From positions 55,189 through 119,188 of the forward strand of contig JAGHIE010000008.1 of the NCBI GenBank assembly GCA_017887325.1: a stretch of 64,000 nucleotides of DNA. Direction: 5' to 3'. The notes beneath the pieces are model-generated. The model ran no database searches. It had not been told where the DNA came from and was given only the letters and a program-made list of their open reading frames with translations. Shown piece by piece: positions 2,482 to 52,373 of the stretch (position 1 is its first letter; the number at the start of each line of letters is the position of its first letter). The translations under genes and the position numbers were made by a program. The stretch is from Oscillospiraceae bacterium (GTDB lineage: Bacteria > Bacillota > Clostridia > Oscillospirales > Ruminococcaceae).

Positions 2482-4431
2482 TTATCTAATTTTAGCACCA
2501 GCTGGTATACTTTCATCAACCATGATAACTTTTACATCACCATTTGGACAGTCAGCAGCAAGTACCATACCATTACTCATAACGCCTCTTAATTTAACAG
2601 GTTTTAAGTTTGATACGATAATTACATTTTTACCTATTAAATCTTCAGGTTTATACCATGTTGCAATACCTGATACAACTTGTCTTGTACCTTCTCCATC
2701 ATCTAATTGTAAACATAAAAGTTTATCAGATTTTTTTACTGGTTCGCATTCTAAGATTTTTGCAACTCTAAGTTCAACTTTAGAGAAATCCTCAATACCA
2801 ATAATTACACCTTCAACTTCTTCTTTTTCTTCTTTTTTAGTTTCTTTTTTTAGTGCTTTTTGTTTTTCTTCAATTTCTTTTGCAATTTCTTCTAACATTT
2901 TCTTTTCATCAATTCTTGCAAAAAGAGGTGTTGCTTCATTAACTTTACCTTCTTTTAAAGCACCAAATTCATTTAAAGATTCAATATCTTTTATGTCACA
3001 ATTGATTTGACCAAAGATTTTTTCAGCAGTTTCTGGTAAAAATGGAATTAATAATACAGCAATAAATCTAATTGTTTCTAATAGATTATATAAAACAGTT
3101 CTTAATCTGTCTGCATTTGCTTCGTCTTTAGCTAGAGCCCATGGTGCTGTTTCATCAATGTATTTATTGCTACGACGAGCTAAAGCCATAACAGCTTCTA
3201 AAGCGTCAGCAACTTTAAATTCATTCATTAATCTAATAACTTCTTTAGCTGTATCAACACTAAATTGTTTTAATTCGTTGTCTAAATCTTCACAAACATT
3301 TTTATTAACAACTTCACCAGCAAAATATTTGTTACTCATAGCAACTGTACGATTTACTAAGTTACCTAAAGTATTAGCTAAATCTGCATTAAATCTGCCA
3401 ATAAGTGATTCATAAGTTATAGAACCATCTTGAGCATAAGGCATTTCTCTTAAACAATAATATCTTACACCATCAACAGTAAATCTCTTAGCTAATTCAT
3501 CAGCATACATAACATTACCTTTAGATTTACTCATTTTATCTTCACCGAATAACATCCATGGGTGACCAAATATTTTCTTAGGTAATGGTAAATCTAAAGC
3601 CATTAACATGATTGGCCAATAGATTGTATGGAATCTTAAAATATCTTTACCGATGATATGAACATCACAAGGCCAATATTTGTTAAATTGCTCACTGCTT
3701 CCGTCTGGGTCATAACCAATACCTGTGATATAGTTTGTTAAAGCATCTATCCAAACATAAACTACATGTTTAGGGTCAAAATCTACAGGAACTCCCCATT
3801 TAAAAGATGTTCTAGATACACATAAATCTTGTAATCCTGGTTTTAAGAAGTTGTTTACCATTTCTCTTTTTCTTGATTCTGGTTGAATAAAGTCAGGATG
3901 TTCTTCAATATATTGCATTAATCTATCTTGATATTTGCTCATTTTAAAGAAGTATGATTCTTCTTTTGTTTTTTCAACTTTTCTACCACAGTCTGGGCAA
4001 CAACCATCAACTAATTGTGTTTCTGTCCAGAAACTTTCACAAGGAGTACAGTATAAACCTTCATACTCACTCTTATAGATATCACCTTGTTCGTAGAATT
4101 TTTTAAATATTTTTTTAACCACTTCTTCATGGTCTTTATCTGTTGTTCTAATAAATTTATCATAAGAAAAATTCATTAAATCCCAAGTGTCTTTAATTTC
4201 ACCAGCAATTTTATCAACATATTGTTGTGGTGTCATATTTGCTTTTTGTGCTAATTCTTCAATTTTTTGTCCATGTTCATCTGTACCTGTTTGGAAAAAT
4301 ACATCTTTTCCCATTAATCTTTGAAATCTTGCAACAGCATCACTTAAAATAATTTCATAAACATTACCTATATGTGGTTTTCTTGATGCATATGCAATAG
4401 CAGTTGTTAAATAATAAGTTTCTTTACACAT
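2482..4431 (-). CDS. metG: Methionyl-tRNA synthetase with C-terminal tRNA-binding (EMAP-like) domain
   Basis: YYLTTAIAYASRKPHIGN class I signature, KMSKSKGN motif, C-terminal FSKVELRVAKI...SNGMVLAA domain; T-box upstream. Confidence 0.96.
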   Translation of the reverse strand: MCKETYYLTTAIAYASRKPHIGNVYEIILSDAVARFQRLMGKDVFFQTGTDEHGQKIEELAQKANMTPQQYVDKIAGEIKDTWDLMNFSYDKFIRTTDKDHEEVVKKIFKKFYEQGDIYKSEYEGLYCTPCESFWTETQLVDGCCPDCGRKVEKTKEESYFFKMSKYQDRLMQYIEEHPDFIQPESRKREMVNNFLKPGLQDLCVSRTSFKWGVPVDFDPKHVVYVWIDALTNYITGIGYDPDGSSEQFNKYWPCDVHIIGKDILRFHTIYWPIMLMALDLPLPKKIFGHPWMLFGEDKMSKSKGNVMYADELAKRFTVDGVRYYCLREMPYAQDGSITYESLIGRFNADLANTLGNLVNRTVAMSNKYFAGEVVNKNVCEDLDNELKQFSVDTAKEVIRLMNEFKVADALEAVMALARRSNKYIDETAPWALAKDEANADRLRTVLYNLLETIRFIAVLLIPFLPETAEKIFGQINCDIKDIESLNEFGALKEGKVNEATPLFARIDEKKMLEEIAKEIEEKQKALKKETKKEEKEEVEGVIIGIEDFSKVELRVAKILECEPVKKSDKLLCLQLDDGEGTRQVVSGIATWYKPEDLIGKNVIIVSNLKPVKLRGVMSNGMVLAADCPNGDVKVIMVDESIPAGAKIR

Positions 4432-4459: not shown

Positions 4460-4725
4460 AAAAACTCTCGCCTTGAAACTTTTCAAGGACGAGAGTATCA
4501 ATTTACTTACTTTCGTGGTACCACCTTAAATTTATTTGTATAAAATTTAATACAAACCTCATTTAGCTATAACGGGCACCCCGTTGAGTTCTAACTTATT
4601 AAAGCTCAAACCCACAGCTCCAAGACCATCTTCTGCAAACACTTCTTTGTTTAGGTTTCAGCAAATCCTAAACTCTCTGTAAAAGGTTATTTACATACTC
4701 TTCTTTTCAACGCTTTTAATACAAT
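4460..4725 (-). promoter_or_regulatory. T-box leader, Met specifier, upstream of metG
   Basis: Minus strand carries AAGGTGGTACCACG (4512-4526) followed by terminator CTCTCGTCCTTGAAAAGTTTCAAGGCGAGAG-TTTTTT (4460-4495); ATG triplet in GAAGATGGTC (4627-4629) is the candidate specifier. Confidence 0.88.
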
Positions 4726-19215: not shown

Positions 19216-22200
19216 TTAAGCATTTACTTTAACAGCAAATTTTACATTTTCACCATTTACATTCCATTCCATTGTAAATCCGTCTAAGCTATCAACAACT
19301 AATTCATCAGCTAATACATCATATTTAACTGTATCCCAGTTATTTTTCAAAATATTAGCAATTTTTTCATTACCTTGTGTTGAAACAATGATATGGTCTG
19401 TAACATTGAAGTTTGCTTCTTTTCTCATAGATTGGATTTTACTAATAATTTCTCTTACAAAACCTTCTTCTATAAGTTCTTCTGTTAAGTGAGTATCTAA
19501 AATTACTGTAATACCTTTATCTGTAACAGCTTCAAAACCTTCTTTTTTAGTTGTTTCAATTAATAATTCTTCTTCTGTTAAGCTAATATCTCCATCAGAT
19601 AAAGTAATTGTAATTGAACCATTAGCATCTAACTCTGCTTTTGCTTTACTACCATCTAAATTAGCTAAAGCTGTTCTGATTTCACCAATTTTCTTACCAT
19701 ATTTTTGACCTAAAATTCTTAATTGTGGTTTAAATACATAAGAAACGAATCCACTAGCATCATCAACAAAGTTTACTGCTTTAACATTCAATTCTTCTTC
19801 GATAATTTCTTTATACATTTCGTCTAATTTCACATTAGAGTTAACACTAATGCTAGAAATAGGTTGTCTGTTTTTGATATTAGCACCATTTCTTGCTGAA
19901 CGACCTAAGATAACTATTTGTAAAACTTGTTCCATATTTTCTTCTAAAGCTTTATCAATATATTTATCATCAGCTACAGGGAAATCACATAAATGGATAC
20001 TTTCTGGAGCATCTTTATCTATACTGCAAACTAAGTTTCTGTAAATATCTTCTGTCATAAATGGAATTAATGGAGCAGATAATTTACATACAGTAACTAA
20101 AGCTGTGTATAAAGTCATATATGCATTGATTTTATCTTGTGACATTTCTTGAGCCCAGAAACGTTCTCTACTTCTTCTTACATACCAGTTACTCATTTCG
20201 TCAACAAATTCTTGTAAAACTCTTGCAGTTTCTGGTATACGGTAATTTTCTAAGTTATCATCAACAACTTTAATCAAGCTGTTTAATTTAGATAATAACC
20301 ATTTATCCATAACTGTTAAGCTTGATAAATCTAAGTTATATTTTGTTGCATCAAATTTATCAATATTTGCATACAACACAAAGAATGCATATGTGTTCCA
20401 CAATGTAGACATGAATTTGCGTTGTCCTTCTTGAACTGCTTTACCATAAAATCTATTTGGTAACCATGGAGCTGAATTTGAATAGAAATACCAACGAATA
20501 GCATCTGCTCCATATGTAGCTAATGCTTCAAATGGGTCAACTGCATTACCTTTAGATTTACTCATTTTTTGTCCGTGTTCATCTTGAACATGGCCTAAAA
20601 CAACAACATTTTTAAATGGAGCTTCATTAAATATTAATGTTGAGATTGCTAAAAGTGAATAGAACCAACCACGAGTTTGGTCAACACCTTCAGAAATAAA
20701 GTTTGCTGGGAATTGTTGTTTAAACACATCTTGATTTTCAAATGGATAGTGATGTTGAGCAAATGGCATAGAACCACTATCAAACCAACAGTCAATAACT
20801 TCTGGAACTCTAACCATTTGTTTACCACATTTTTCACATTTAATAGTAACACCATCAATGTATGGTCTGTGTAGTTCGATATCATCAGGACAGTTATCTG
20901 ACATTTGTTTTAATTCTTCAATGCTTCCGATAGAATGTTTATGACCACATTCACATTCCCAAATGTTTAAAGGTGTACCCCAGTAACGATTACGGCTAAT
21001 ACCCCAATCTTGTACATTTTCTAACCAGTCACCAAAACGACCTTTACCAATACTTTCTGGAATCCAATTAATTGTATTGTTATTTCTGATTAAATCATCT
21101 TTAACAGCTGTCATTTTAACAAACCAAGATTCTCTTGCGTAGTAGATAAGTGGTGTATCACATCTCCAACAATGAGGATAACTATGTTCAAAGTTTGGAG
21201 CATCAAATAATAAACCTCTTTCTTCTAGGTTCATTAAAACATGTTTATCAGCATCTTTACAGAACATTCCAGCCCATAAAGTTTCTTCTGTCATTTCACC
21301 TTTGGCATCTACTAATTGTACGAATGGTAAATCATATTCTCTACCTACTTGAGCATCGTCTTCACCGAATGCAGGAGCAATATGAACAACACCTGTACCG
21401 TCTGTTAATGTAACATAATCAGCGCAAGTTACATAATAACATTTTTTATCAGGTTTAGCGAAATCAAATAATGGGATATATTCTTTATATTCTAAGTCTT
21501 TACCTACAAATTTTTCTAAAACTTCTACATCTTCGCCTAGTATTTTTTCTACTAAAGCACTAGCCATGTAAATAACTTCATTATCTTTTCTAACTTTTAC
21601 ATATTCTTCTCTAGGGTTTACACACAATGCAACGTTTGATGGTAAAGTCCAAGGAGTTGTTGTCCAAGCTAAAATATATGCATCTTCATCTTTAACTTTA
21701 AATCTTACAATAGCAGAACGTTCTTTTACATCTTTATAACCTTGTGCAACTTCGTGGCTTGATAAAGGTGTACCACATCTTGGGCAGTAAGGAACAATTT
21801 TAAATCCTTTATATAACAAACCTTTTTCCCAAATTTGTTTTAATGCCCACCATTCACTTTCAATGAAGTTGTTATCATAAGTTACATAAGGGTTTTCCAT
21901 ATCAACCCAAAAACCTACTGTTTGAGAAAAATCTTCCCACATACCTTTATATTTCCAAACGCTTTCTTTACATTTTTCAATAAAAGGTTCTAAACCATAG
22001 TTTTCGATTTGATCTTTACCATTAATACCTAATAGTTTTTCAACTTCTAATTCTACTGGTAGTCCGTGAGTATCCCAACCAGCTTTTCTAGGAACATTAT
22101 AACCTTTCATTGTACGGTATCTAGGAATCATATCTTTAATAACCCTTGTTAAAACATGGCCGATATGAGGTTTACCATTAGCTGTAGGAGGACCATCATA

Positions 22201-22329
22201 AAAAGTATATGTTTCTCCTTCTTTTCTGCTATTAACAGATTTTTCGAAAATTTTGTTTTCACGCCAAAAATCTTCAATCATTTTTTCGCGTTCAACAAAG
22301 TTCAAATTAGTAGACACTTTTTGATACAT
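19216..22329 (-). CDS. ileS: Isoleucyl-tRNA synthetase
   Basis: DGPPTANGKPHIGH (HIGH) and KMSKSKGNAVDP motifs; 1037 aa; T-box upstream. Confidence 0.96.
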   Translation of the reverse strand: MYQKVSTNLNFVEREKMIEDFWRENKIFEKSVNSRKEGETYTFYDGPPTANGKPHIGHVLTRVIKDMIPRYRTMKGYNVPRKAGWDTHGLPVELEVEKLLGINGKDQIENYGLEPFIEKCKESVWKYKGMWEDFSQTVGFWVDMENPYVTYDNNFIESEWWALKQIWEKGLLYKGFKIVPYCPRCGTPLSSHEVAQGYKDVKERSAIVRFKVKDEDAYILAWTTTPWTLPSNVALCVNPREEYVKVRKDNEVIYMASALVEKILGEDVEVLEKFVGKDLEYKEYIPLFDFAKPDKKCYYVTCADYVTLTDGTGVVHIAPAFGEDDAQVGREYDLPFVQLVDAKGEMTEETLWAGMFCKDADKHVLMNLEERGLLFDAPNFEHSYPHCWRCDTPLIYYARESWFVKMTAVKDDLIRNNNTINWIPESIGKGRFGDWLENVQDWGISRNRYWGTPLNIWECECGHKHSIGSIEELKQMSDNCPDDIELHRPYIDGVTIKCEKCGKQMVRVPEVIDCWFDSGSMPFAQHHYPFENQDVFKQQFPANFISEGVDQTRGWFYSLLAISTLIFNEAPFKNVVVLGHVQDEHGQKMSKSKGNAVDPFEALATYGADAIRWYFYSNSAPWLPNRFYGKAVQEGQRKFMSTLWNTYAFFVLYANIDKFDATKYNLDLSSLTVMDKWLLSKLNSLIKVVDDNLENYRIPETARVLQEFVDEMSNWYVRRSRERFWAQEMSQDKINAYMTLYTALVTVCKLSAPLIPFMTEDIYRNLVCSIDKDAPESIHLCDFPVADDKYIDKALEENMEQVLQIVILGRSARNGANIKNRQPISSISVNSNVKLDEMYKEIIEEELNVKAVNFVDDASGFVSYVFKPQLRILGQKYGKKIGEIRTALANLDGSKAKAELDANGSITITLSDGDISLTEEELLIETTKKEGFEAVTDKGITVILDTHLTEELIEEGFVREIISKIQSMRKEANFNVTDHIIVSTQGNEKIANILKNNWDTVKYDVLADELVVDSLDGFTMEWNVNGENVKFAVKVNA

Positions 22330-22374: not shown

Positions 22375-22625
22375 ACAAAAAATCTTTGCCCTTAGTGAAA
22401 AGGACAAAGATTGTAACTTCGATTTAAACCACCTTATTCAACATACCAACATATGCGTTCCTTTTAACGGTGGAACACCGACAAAGCTTACTTTAAATTT
22501 CACCTTTGCAACTCATAGAGTGATATTCAATAAAAACCTAATCATACTGGGCTTTCACTGTCCCCAACTCGCTATAATTTTCAGTTAATATCTACTGTCT
22601 CCGTCATAGTTTTTACTATTTATAA
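22375..22625 (-). promoter_or_regulatory. T-box leader, Ile specifier, upstream of ileS
   Basis: Minus strand AATAAGGTGGTTT (22428-22440) plus terminator AATCTTTGTCCTTTTCACTAAGGGCAAAGATTTTTT (22377-22412); candidate ATC specifier in GAATATCACTC (22522-22524); AGCGAG...GGGGA stem I region. Confidence 0.82.
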
Positions 22626-48794: not shown

Positions 48795-49637
48795 CTATAT
48801 ATTCTTAAGACTTTCTTCTTTTAAAAGTCTACCTTCTCTTAGTAATTCTTTTAATTCTTCACTATTATCATTTTCCATAGCTTGTTTGTATTCTTGCAAT
48901 TTTTCTATTATAGTATCTATTTCAAATAACAAAGCTTTTTTATTTAGCATAAATAAATCAGTCCACATATTTTCATCTAACTTTGCAACTCTTGTTAAAT
49001 CTTGAAAGCTACCTGCTGAAAAACCACTTTCTTGTTTTGCTGATGGACTTTTCATATAAGCGTTAGAAACTACATGGGCAAGTTGAGAAGTAAAAGCTAT
49101 AACTCTGTCATGTTCTTCAGGAGTAGTTACAACTATTTTCCCAAATTGCAATTTTTGTGCAAAATATTTTATAAATTCTGTTATATGTGCAGGAGTATCC
49201 TCAAAAGGTGTAACTATAAAACTAGCATTATCAAATAAATTATCTAGTGAATATTCAAATCCAGAAAATTCTCTACCAGCCATTGGGTGAGCACCTACAA
49301 ATAAAACACCTTTATCTTTTAATGGTTTATAAACTCTATCAACTATACCTTGTTTAATACCACAAGTATCCATTACTAGACTATCTCTTTTAAAGTTATC
49401 TAAATTTTCTAATATAAAATTAATACTTTGTGTTGGATGTAAACTCACAATAACTAAATCCATATTTTTTAAATTATCTGTTGTATGCAAATCTTCATCT
49501 ATCGCTTTGCACTCTAAAGCCAATTTTACACTATTTTCATTTATATCTAATCCATATACTTTATGGTCAGTATATTTCTTTATAGATTTACAAAAAGAAC
49601 CACCTATCAAACCAAGTCCTACTACTGCAATATTCAT
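48795..49637 (-). CDS. tyrA: Prephenate dehydrogenase
   Basis: MNIAVVGLGLIGGSFCKSIK, GAHPMAGREFSGFEYS, AFTSQLAHVVSNA. Confidence 0.92.
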   Translation of the reverse strand: MNIAVVGLGLIGGSFCKSIKKYTDHKVYGLDINENSVKLALECKAIDEDLHTTDNLKNMDLVIVSLHPTQSINFILENLDNFKRDSLVMDTCGIKQGIVDRVYKPLKDKGVLFVGAHPMAGREFSGFEYSLDNLFDNASFIVTPFEDTPAHITEFIKYFAQKLQFGKIVVTTPEEHDRVIAFTSQLAHVVSNAYMKSPSAKQESGFSAGSFQDLTRVAKLDENMWTDLFMLNKKALLFEIDTIIEKLQEYKQAMENDNSEELKELLREGRLLKEESLKNI

Positions 49638-49650
49638 AAAATATCCCCCA

Positions 49651-50661
49651 CTATATTTGTTTACCTTCAAACTCTACATATGCCTTTATTGTTTTCATAA
49701 CATTATCAAATTGTTCTGGTGTTAATGATTGAGCACCGTCACAAAGTGCTTTTTTAGGATTGTTATGAACTTCTATCATTATACCATCAGCCCCACAAGC
49801 GATTGAAGCTTTTGACATAGGTTCTACTAAATCTGTTAAACCTGTTGCATGACTAGGGTCAACTATTATAGGTAAATGTGTTTCTTTCTTTAAGAAAGGT
49901 ATTGAAGCTAAATCTAAAGTATTTCTCATAGCTGTTTCAAATGTTCTTATCCCTCTTTCACATAATATAACATTTGTATTTCCTCCAGCCATAATATATT
50001 CAGCACTCATTAAAAATTCTTCGATTGTATTAGCCAATCCCCTTTTTAATAAGATTGGTTTATTACAATGACCTAATTCTTTTAATAATTCAAAGTTTTG
50101 CATATTTCTAGCACCAACTTGAATTACATCAACATCTGAAAATAAATCTAAATGTGATAAACTCATAATTTCAGTAACAATAGGCATGCCTGTAACTTCT
50201 TTTGCTTTTAATAATAATTTTAATCCGTCATCTCTCAAGCCTTGAAAAGCGTATGGAGAAGTTCTTGGTTTAAAAGCTCCACCTCTTAAAAAGTTTGCGC
50301 CACTTTTCTTTACAGCTTGTGCAACTTCTATTATTTGTTCTTCTGACTCTATAGAACAAGGGCCAGCAATCATTCCAAAATATCCACCACCTATTTTTCT
50401 GTCAGATACTTCTACAATAGTATCTTTTGGGTGGAATTTTCTATTAACAGCTTTGTATGGTTCTGATACTCTTTTTACATCTTTAACTATTTCATTTGCT
50501 TTAACCATATCAATATCTACCTTAGATGTATCTCCTACTAAGCCTATTAATGTTGTATGTGTCCCTTGACTGTAATGATTTTTCAAACCCAAATCTTCAA
50601 ATTGTTTTAAAAGTTTATCTATACTATCTTTTGGTGCATTATCTTTTAATATTACTATCAT
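49651..50661 (-). CDS. aroF: 3-deoxy-7-phosphoheptulonate synthase (AroF-type)
   Basis: GPCSIESEEQI, GGAFKPRTSPYAFQGL, ILLKRGLANTIEEFLMSAEYI, IVDPSHATG. Confidence 0.93.
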   Translation of the reverse strand: MIVILKDNAPKDSIDKLLKQFEDLGLKNHYSQGTHTTLIGLVGDTSKVDIDMVKANEIVKDVKRVSEPYKAVNRKFHPKDTIVEVSDRKIGGGYFGMIAGPCSIESEEQIIEVAQAVKKSGANFLRGGAFKPRTSPYAFQGLRDDGLKLLLKAKEVTGMPIVTEIMSLSHLDLFSDVDVIQVGARNMQNFELLKELGHCNKPILLKRGLANTIEEFLMSAEYIMAGGNTNVILCERGIRTFETAMRNTLDLASIPFLKKETHLPIIVDPSHATGLTDLVEPMSKASIACGADGIMIEVHNNPKKALCDGAQSLTPEQFDNVMKTIKAYVEFEGKQI

Positions 50662-50695: not shown

Positions 50696-50733
50696 AACCG
50701 GTAACTTTTTTTACTACTAAAAAGTTACCGGTT
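50696..50733 (-). terminator. Attenuator terminator upstream of aroF-tyrA
   Basis: Minus strand AACCGGTAACTTTTT-AGTAGTA-AAAAAAGTTACCGGTT followed by TTTATTG; 35 nt upstream of the aroF start. Confidence 0.85.
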
Positions 50734-50761
50734 ATAGCTAATCTAAATAATAAATTTAAAT

Positions 50762-50854
50762 TTATCGGTTTTTTATAGCAGCAAAAAAAGCTCGAACAGA
50801 AATGTTCAAGTAATAGTAATAATAATAGTTTTTGTTCAATACTAAATTATTCAT
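50762..50854 (-). CDS. 30-aa leader peptide with six consecutive Tyr codons (attenuation peptide)
   Basis: MNNLVLNKNYYYYYYLNISVRAFFAAIKNR*; preceded by AAAGGA; followed by hairpin CUUGAAC/GUUCGAG and the aroF terminator. Confidence 0.85.
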   Translation of the reverse strand: MNNLVLNKNYYYYYYLNISVRAFFAAIKNR

Positions 50855-50934
50855 AACTAAATTCCTTTCTTTGCTTTTGTACTTTAAAGTGTAATACTAT
50901 TTTTATTATTTGTCAAGATTTTTTTCATACAAAA

Positions 50935-50975: not shown

Positions 50976-52373
50976 TTATTTTATTACTCCAAATTTTTGT
51001 AAGTATCCAAAAACAAATATCACAATTATAACAACTGGTAATCCATATTGCATATAACCTTTTATCCATTTTGGTAGTTTTAAACCTACACCTTCATTAG
51101 CTTCTGCAAAGAACTTTTTAAAGCCCCAACCATATTTTGTTACACAGAATAATAAGTAAACTAATGAACCTAAAGGTAATAAATTATTTGTAATAATAAA
51201 GTCTTCTAAGTCTAAAATAGTACTTCCTTCACCAAATGGTGTTACATTTGACCAAACACTAAATCCTAATACACAAGGAATACTTAATACAATTATAGCT
51301 ATTAAATTTATTATAATTGCTTTTTTTCTGCTCCAATTCCAAAGATCAGATGCAAAAGAAATTATATTTTCAAATATAGCGATAACTGTAGTTAACGCTG
51401 CAAATGACATAAATATAAAGAATAATGTTCCCCATATTCTACCACCAGCCATATTGTTAAATATATTTGGTAATGTTACAAATACAAGTCCTGGTCCTTG
51501 TCCTGGATTTACACCAAATGAGAAACAAGCTGGGAAAATTATTAATCCTGCCAATAAAGCTACTGATGTATCCAATATAGCAATATTTAAAGATTCGCCT
51601 AATAAACTGCGTTCTTTATCAATATAGCTACCAAATATAGCTAATGAACCAATACCAATACTCAATGTAAAGAATGATTGTCCTAACGCAGCAAAAACAG
51701 TATTTAAAACACCATTTTCAACCATCTTACTAAAATCTGGTAATAAATAGAATTTTAAACCTGCACCAGCTCCTTCAAGTGTTACAGCTCTTATAACTAA
51801 GATTATCATAATGATAAATAAACTAGACATCATAAACTTAGTTACTTTTTCAACGCCTTTTTGTAATCCAAAAGAACAAATTACAAAACCAATTACAACA
51901 GCACAAACCATTGCAAATAACATGATAGGTGTATTAGAAATAGTTTTGTTAAATACTTCTCCTGTTTGATTAGCATCTAAACCAACAAAGTCCCCTTTTA
52001 ACATCTTAACAAAATATGTTAACATCCAACCTGTAACAGTGGTATAAAACATCATTAAAATGTAGTTACCTGCCATAGCAACATATCCATGTATATGCCA
52101 TTTTGAACCTTTTGGTTCTAATGCTTGGAAAGATTTAGCAGCACTTTTTTGGCTAGCTCTACCAACTGCAAATTCGCAAACCATTATAGGTAAACCTAAT
52201 GCTAACAAGAATAGTATATAGATAATTACAAAAGCTGCTCCTCCATATTGTCCAACAATATATGGAAAACGCCACACATTACCTAAACCTATCGCACAAC
52301 CAGCAGACAAGAAAATAAATCCTAATCTTGAACCTAATCTTGCTCTGCTTTCTTCTTTTTTATGCAAAGACAT
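50976..52373 (-). CDS. Neurotransmitter:sodium symporter (NSS/SNF) family transporter
   Basis: SRLGFIFLSAGCAIGLGNVWRFPYIVGQYGGAAFVIIYILFL typical NSS N-terminus. Confidence 0.93.
   Translation of the reverse strand: MSLHKKEESRARLGSRLGFIFLSAGCAIGLGNVWRFPYIVGQYGGAAFVIIYILFLLALGLPIMVCEFAVGRASQKSAAKSFQALEPKGSKWHIHGYVAMAGNYILMMFYTTVTGWMLTYFVKMLKGDFVGLDANQTGEVFNKTISNTPIMLFAMVCAVVIGFVICSFGLQKGVEKVTKFMMSSLFIIMIILVIRAVTLEGAGAGLKFYLLPDFSKMVENGVLNTVFAALGQSFFTLSIGIGSLAIFGSYIDKERSLLGESLNIAILDTSVALLAGLIIFPACFSFGVNPGQGPGLVFVTLPNIFNNMAGGRIWGTLFFIFMSFAALTTVIAIFENIISFASDLWNWSRKKAIIINLIAIIVLSIPCVLGFSVWSNVTPFGEGSTILDLEDFIITNNLLPLGSLVYLLFCVTKYGWGFKKFFAEANEGVGLKLPKWIKGYMQYGLPVVIIVIFVFGYLQKFGVIK

Follow-up and report, generated by a model that had tools for sequence, protein, structure and literature searches.

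A leader peptide with six tyrosine codons and a probable ribosome-mediated attenuator upstream of aroF-tyrA in an Oscillospiraceae bacterium

Described attenuators and the aroF-tyrA locus

The classical ribosome-mediated attenuators are those of E. coli trpL, pheL/pheA and hisL, and the usual control of such genes by amino acid starvation in Firmicutes is the T-box. DAHP synthase catalyzes the entry step into aromatic amino acid synthesis, and its regulation in the Clostridia considered here appears to have been previously undescribed. An earlier survey cites T-box control by tyrosine in other species (PMC1262725). Closest to the present locus is uORFC-13-1 of Acholeplasma, in which a short uORF containing Phe codons and a terminator precede aroF and for which attenuation has been proposed; it comprises 24 sequences from the genus Acholeplasma only, with at least one Phe codon arising from a U run (PMC8632094). 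The clostridial leaders are set apart from it by description, in that they are rich in Tyr as well as Phe, occur in many genera, and have an antiterminator that we tested. His leader-peptide attenuators have been predicted in Firmicutes, including C. difficile and Erysipelotrichales, but these carry His codons, precede his operons in other lineages, and involve no aromatic genes (PMC9413887). Table 7 of a further study lists putative attenuators before tyrA operons, including aroAIbeta > tyrA in Thermus thermophilus (PMC1173090). As listed there, these share with our locus a predicted terminator and antiterminator before the same gene pair, but they are database structure predictions in other taxa, given there with no named leader peptide. 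The open-access literature yielded no earlier description of aromatic leaders in Clostridia; subscription journals lay mostly outside this search, and a prior mention is possible. The kind of attenuation is classical; the family of aromatic leaders in Clostridia seems to be new as well as common.

We analyzed a window of 64,000 nucleotides, by which we mean the whole stretch of contig JAGHIE010000008.1 under study. On its minus strand, a promoter, a Shine-Dalgarno sequence, a leader ORF and an intrinsic terminator are followed by the genes for DAHP synthase (ATG at 50661) and prephenate dehydrogenase:

50888 to 50916, minus strand: sigma-70-type promoter, TTGACA-17-TACACT, with 10/12 consensus matches
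50863 to 50868, minus strand: Shine-Dalgarno AAAGGA of the leader ORF, 8 nt ahead of its ATG, read directly
50762 to 50854, minus strand: leader peptide ORF of 30 codons, MNNLVLNKNYYYYYYLNISVRAFFAAIKNR, read directly; aromatic leaders stand in the same place in relatives
50810 to 50827, minus strand: putative sensor, six consecutive Tyr codons, UAU UAU UAU UAC UAU UAC
50791 to 50810, minus strand: hairpin CUUGAACA-UUUC-UGUUCGAG, directly after the Tyr codons and followed by CUUUUUUUG
50696 to 50733, minus strand: intrinsic terminator AACCGGUAACUUUUUAGUAGUAAAAAAAGUUACCGGUU followed by UUUAUU, with 15 bp, an 8-nt loop and a U-tract
49651 to 50661, minus strand: DAHP synthase, called aroF here (PF00793 and PF18152, DAHP_snth_FXD domain), first gene of the regulated pair
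48795 to 49637, minus strand: prephenate dehydrogenase, tyrA (PF02153 and PF20463), second gene of the pair

The initial annotation had reported the AAAGGA motif, ORF, Tyr run, hairpin, terminator and gene order, and these are correct base for base. Transcription would start near 50881, giving a leader of about 185 nt from that start to the terminator end, most of which the ORF occupies. The locus has, at its transcript start, a short translatable ORF with a ribosome-binding site; within that ORF, a run of codons for the operon's product amino acid (six Tyr codons before aroF-tyrA); and, between the ORF and the first structural gene, an intrinsic terminator. Two terminator-like sites were found in a 411-nt stretch against 0.0 expected, and the 201-nt leader folds with z = -3.3, none of 200 shuffles being equally stable. 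At 50976-52370, a short way upstream of the attenuator and on its strand, lies a gene of the sodium:neurotransmitter symporter family, possibly an amino acid transporter.

Antiterminator pairing and a model of the switch

The terminator has a competitor within the leader ORF, formed by two strands:

50776 to 50792, minus strand: region 2, the antiterminator 5' strand AGCUUUUUUUGCUGCUA, within the leader ORF just after the hairpin, pairing over 17 bp
50703 to 50719, minus strand: region 3, the antiterminator 3' strand UAGUAGUAAAAAAAGUU, comprising the terminator loop and the start of its 3' arm

Positions 50792-50776 and 50719-50703 form 17 contiguous base pairs (z -5.5), and neither the run nor its energy was matched in any of 1000 dinucleotide shuffles. 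This pairing replaces an antiterminator proposed earlier, in which ACCG before the stop codon pairs with CGGU; that helix is only 4 bp, and the longer pairing engages the terminator loop and 3' arm, not the 5' arm. Region 2 and the terminator thus provide the mutually exclusive structures of an attenuator, with a 5' strand that would be free when a ribosome stalls and covered when it reaches the stop codon; these are computed rather than probed structures. As in E. coli trpL, pheL/pheA and hisL, there is a leader ORF with end-product codons, a 2:3 antiterminator opposed to a 3:4 terminator, and a switch set by ribosome position. The window differs from those attenuators in its poly-Tyr sensor, in its operon (aroF-tyrA), in an antiterminator that takes the terminator loop and 3' arm, in a candidate region 1 that lies in the Shine-Dalgarno area, and in matching no Rfam leader family.

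Equilibrium folding of the complete leader was set aside as evidence, since it nearly always returns the terminator, and growing transcripts were used instead. Because the full-length terminator is thermodynamically favored in most states, antitermination must be kinetic. Since the terminator loop is transcribed ahead of the 3' arm, it is at the loop that region 2 can nucleate first. We computed partition functions along the growing transcript with ribosomes placed at the Tyr codons, the start or the stop. With ribosomes on both the Tyr codons and the start, the antiterminator keeps a probability of about 1.0 until position 50699. A ribosome at the stop leaves the antiterminator scarce or absent, and the terminator follows; adding a second ribosome at the start gives a transient, partial antiterminator that is gone by 50699, when the terminator forms. 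Without a ribosome, the terminator has probability 1.0 once complete.

The remaining state, a single stalled ribosome with the start left free, ends with the terminator winning, as the 5' UTR captures region 2 through a further element:

50865 to 50875, minus strand: tentative candidate region 1, AGCAAAGAAAG, overlapping the Shine-Dalgarno sequence and able to form 11 bp with 50790-50780

The 11-bp helix between 50875-50865 and 50790-50780 is equalled by 79 of 1000 shuffles, and its role is uncertain in our model; the helix would be lost if a ribosome were queued or initiating.

Taken together, these computations suggest the following scheme. Behind the polymerase transcribing the leader, a ribosome would translate the 30-codon peptide. 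If Tyr-tRNA is ample, the ribosome would run to the stop codon and cover region 2 (50792-50776), allowing the terminator (50733-50696) to form and stop transcription. With scarce Tyr-tRNA, the ribosome would stall on the six Tyr codons and leave region 2 free to grip the nascent terminator loop (50719-50703) before the 3' arm is complete, permitting read-through into aroF and tyrA. In the absence of translation, the terminator would win. Translation of the leader ORF, ribosome stalling and the tyrosine response are inferred from this arrangement. The two Phe codons of the window leader fall inside region 2; a ribosome stalled on them would cover region 2, so Phe shortage should not open the switch, and tyrosine is probably the only amino acid sensed in the window species.

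The hairpin after the Tyr codons admits another function. Lying inside the leader ORF, it scores as a terminator-like site (50810-50783; 8 bp with 3 GC pairs, tail CTTTTTTTGC, a U7 tract), which could make attenuation two-step, with the hairpin as a weak terminator and a Tyr-stalled ribosome preventing two terminations. We consider this very unlikely: the stem is short and weak, a closely trailing ribosome would block termination at 50810-50791 at every tyrosine level, and the U-tract is needed as region 2 and so is explained without a role in termination. Nor was the hairpin retained as a competitor of the antiterminator, as it overlaps region 2 by 2 nt only and the two are not mutually exclusive. 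A pause or stacking hairpin is more likely than such a competitor, with a weak internal terminator as the alternative.

On the anatomy, the antiterminator and the leaders of relatives described below, the aroF-tyrA operon is very probably controlled by ribosome-mediated transcription attenuation that depends on tyrosine, a reading first put forward in the initial annotation.

Leaders before DAHP synthase in relatives

Conservation of the short ORF in related Clostridia had been named in advance as a way to check the reading. DAHP synthase loci came from three sources, 60 related genomes, 80 GTDB-based loci with record titles, and a family-level sample. A leader was counted if it had a Shine-Dalgarno sequence, 10-50 codons, at least 5 Phe/Tyr in 9 residues, and a position within 400 nt upstream. 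Such Phe/Tyr-rich leaders precede 69/104 related loci (21/29 and 48/75), whereas neither the reverse complement nor the sequence 500-900 nt upstream of the 104 loci yielded any. A held-out set of 40 loci, picked afterwards, gave 29/40, all new peptides, against 0/40 in the control. Combined, leaders occur in 98/144 real upstream stretches and in 0/144 reverse-complement controls, so the check came out in favor of the proposal. The remark that leader-peptide control is unusual for Firmicutes needs qualifying: predicted His attenuators (PMC9413887) and the Acholeplasma aroF uORF (PMC8632094) had already been described, and among the sampled relatives aromatic leaders before aroF are the rule, not the exception.

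These counts bear on the simplest alternative, that in so AT-rich a genome the poly-Tyr run amounts to low-complexity noise, and that nothing more than an ordinary intergenic or constitutively attenuating terminator is there. Runs of five Tyr codons number 7 in the 2.28-Mb, 24-contig genome compared with 5 for the reversed pattern, a similar frequency. By itself, then, the Tyr run is weak evidence, as it is not rare in this AT-rich genome. It gains weight because it lies within a Shine-Dalgarno-led ORF before a terminator and is conserved in relatives. The open frames around the other Tyr runs in the genome are unlike the leader ORF, and His-run leaders, sought in the same genome, showed no excess over control. 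Against noise stand both the 98/144 leaders with none in the reverse-complement controls and the antiterminator pairing, which is specific to each locus; we regard this alternative as extremely unlikely.

The leaders of relatives are diverse. Examples are MKRNIFAAEYFYFYFINKS, MKNFMFAYEYFYFYFYFTLKNKVKAIRAAII and MAYLVFAAFFFFFSWGFYFSTGSFCCKKILPFKK, and named hosts include Angelakisella massiliensis, Bittarella massiliensis and Oscillibacter valericigenes; the peptide in one same-family genome is identical to that of Angelakisella massiliensis, a species that NCBI assigns to the Oscillospiraceae (Clostridia), which makes a related clostridium the probable host of the window. In the nearest relatives, which belong to the same genus, the leaders are Phe-rich, not poly-Tyr. 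Of the 74 distinct leaders, 73 are followed by an intrinsic terminator, typically 15-60 nt past the stop, and all 29 held-out leaders have one.

The antiterminator is also conserved as a pairing. We paired the segment that begins where the aromatic run ends and closes shortly after the stop with its own terminator or with those of other loci. Pairing energies were -23.1 kcal/mol for own and -17.6 kcal/mol for swapped terminators (z -14, 0/10000 permutations), with p = 9e-11 after GC matching and a combined shuffle p = 1e-32; these p-values serve as guides, given that related sequences are not independent. The held-out loci gave the same preference (z -6.4, 0/10000). A first version of the shuffle test cut region 2 at the stop codon and was weak where region 2 follows the stop, and the stretch was later widened. 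In leaders with a UUUGUG motif, four adjacent variable pairs covary (GCGA, GUAA, GUGG and GGGC, for example, are each matched by their complement). Congeners and relatives retain the region 2 motif UUUUGCUGY in differing reading frames: the window has UUUUGCUGCU, read Phe-Ala-Ala, while two of three congeners have UUUUUGCUGU, read Phe-Cys-Cys. The same motif in different frames indicates that it is the RNA, not the peptide, that is kept there.

A protector pairing between regions 1 and 2 is significant in the relatives as a set; the window helix of 11 bp is the one that 79/1000 shuffles match. In many relatives, the codons that immediately precede the aromatic run (UUUGCAGC, read FAA) pair with region 2 (GCUGCAAA), a classical 1:2 arrangement.

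Several loci depart from the common form. Short leaders at L050, L068, L071, L079, L103 and L110 have their stop codon before region 2, and here only the leading edge of a ribosome at the stop would reach over region 2, a variant geometry. Aromatic leaders also precede aroF in MAGs assigned to other phyla, namely Treponema (L116, L107), Fusobacteria (L108) and Lentisphaerae (L101), which could reflect horizontal transfer, a wider spread or binning error. About one third of related loci have no such leader under the criteria used, among them L009, L010, L012, L022 and L025. A search for T-boxes near 20 aroF loci, nearly all leaderless by these criteria, found none.

Codon content and the following gene

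Among 68 scanned loci, the gene after aroF is that for prephenate dehydrogenase in 40 and for 3-dehydroquinate synthase (aroB) in 22, and leader composition matches this difference. The Tyr share of Tyr plus Phe codons is 0.51 in aroF-tyrA leaders versus 0.25 in aroF-aroB leaders (p = 1.4e-8), and Trp codons occur in 3/40 of the former versus 9/22 of the latter (p = 0.0025). A following tyrA thus goes with Tyr-rich leaders, and a following aroB with leaders that are rich in Phe and sometimes contain Trp. Among the tyrA operons, the window leader stands close to the Tyr end of the range; its six Tyr codons, and a composition that tracks operon type in relatives, bear out the earlier suggestion of tyrosine as the likely signal. 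We think it likely that DAHP synthase in Oscillospiraceae-related Clostridia is controlled mainly by widespread aromatic leader-peptide attenuators, with Tyr, Phe and Trp content retuned in evolution to the following genes (Tyr for aroF-tyrA, Phe and Trp for aroF-aroB) and the window carrying an extreme, purely Tyr-sensing form.

A leader peptide could also be real and yet serve only to couple transcription to translation, the main control lying in an RNA that senses tRNA (T-box-like) or binds a protein such as a repressor. T-boxes are indeed common in this genome, where nine score over the cut-off. At the leader, by contrast, the T-box covariance model gave no match, and neither did any of 4227 Rfam families at gathering score, with nothing meaningful at a relaxed threshold; 20 related loci likewise had no Rfam match at the leader. 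At about 185 nt, mostly taken up by the ORF, the leader falls short of the 219 positions of the T-box model, and an aromatic codon content that tracks operon content can be read by decoding only. We therefore judge a main control of this type to be very unlikely. The attenuator favored here differs from T-box riboswitches in that the ribosome would do the sensing.

If the attenuator reading holds across these lineages, a large bacterial group would sense aromatics at this step by ribosomes, not by T-boxes or TyrR-like proteins. About a hundred natural variants would show codon content evolving with operon content, and many small unannotated ORFs would gain a function, together with a simple rule predicting what each senses.

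Elsewhere in the window, a T-box leader scoring 118 bits lies at 4482-4719 (minus strand), directly upstream of the methionyl-tRNA synthetase gene metG (2482-4431), and a sub-threshold T-box of 77.5 bits lies at 22397-22616 (minus strand), upstream of the isoleucyl-tRNA synthetase-like gene ileS (19216-22329).
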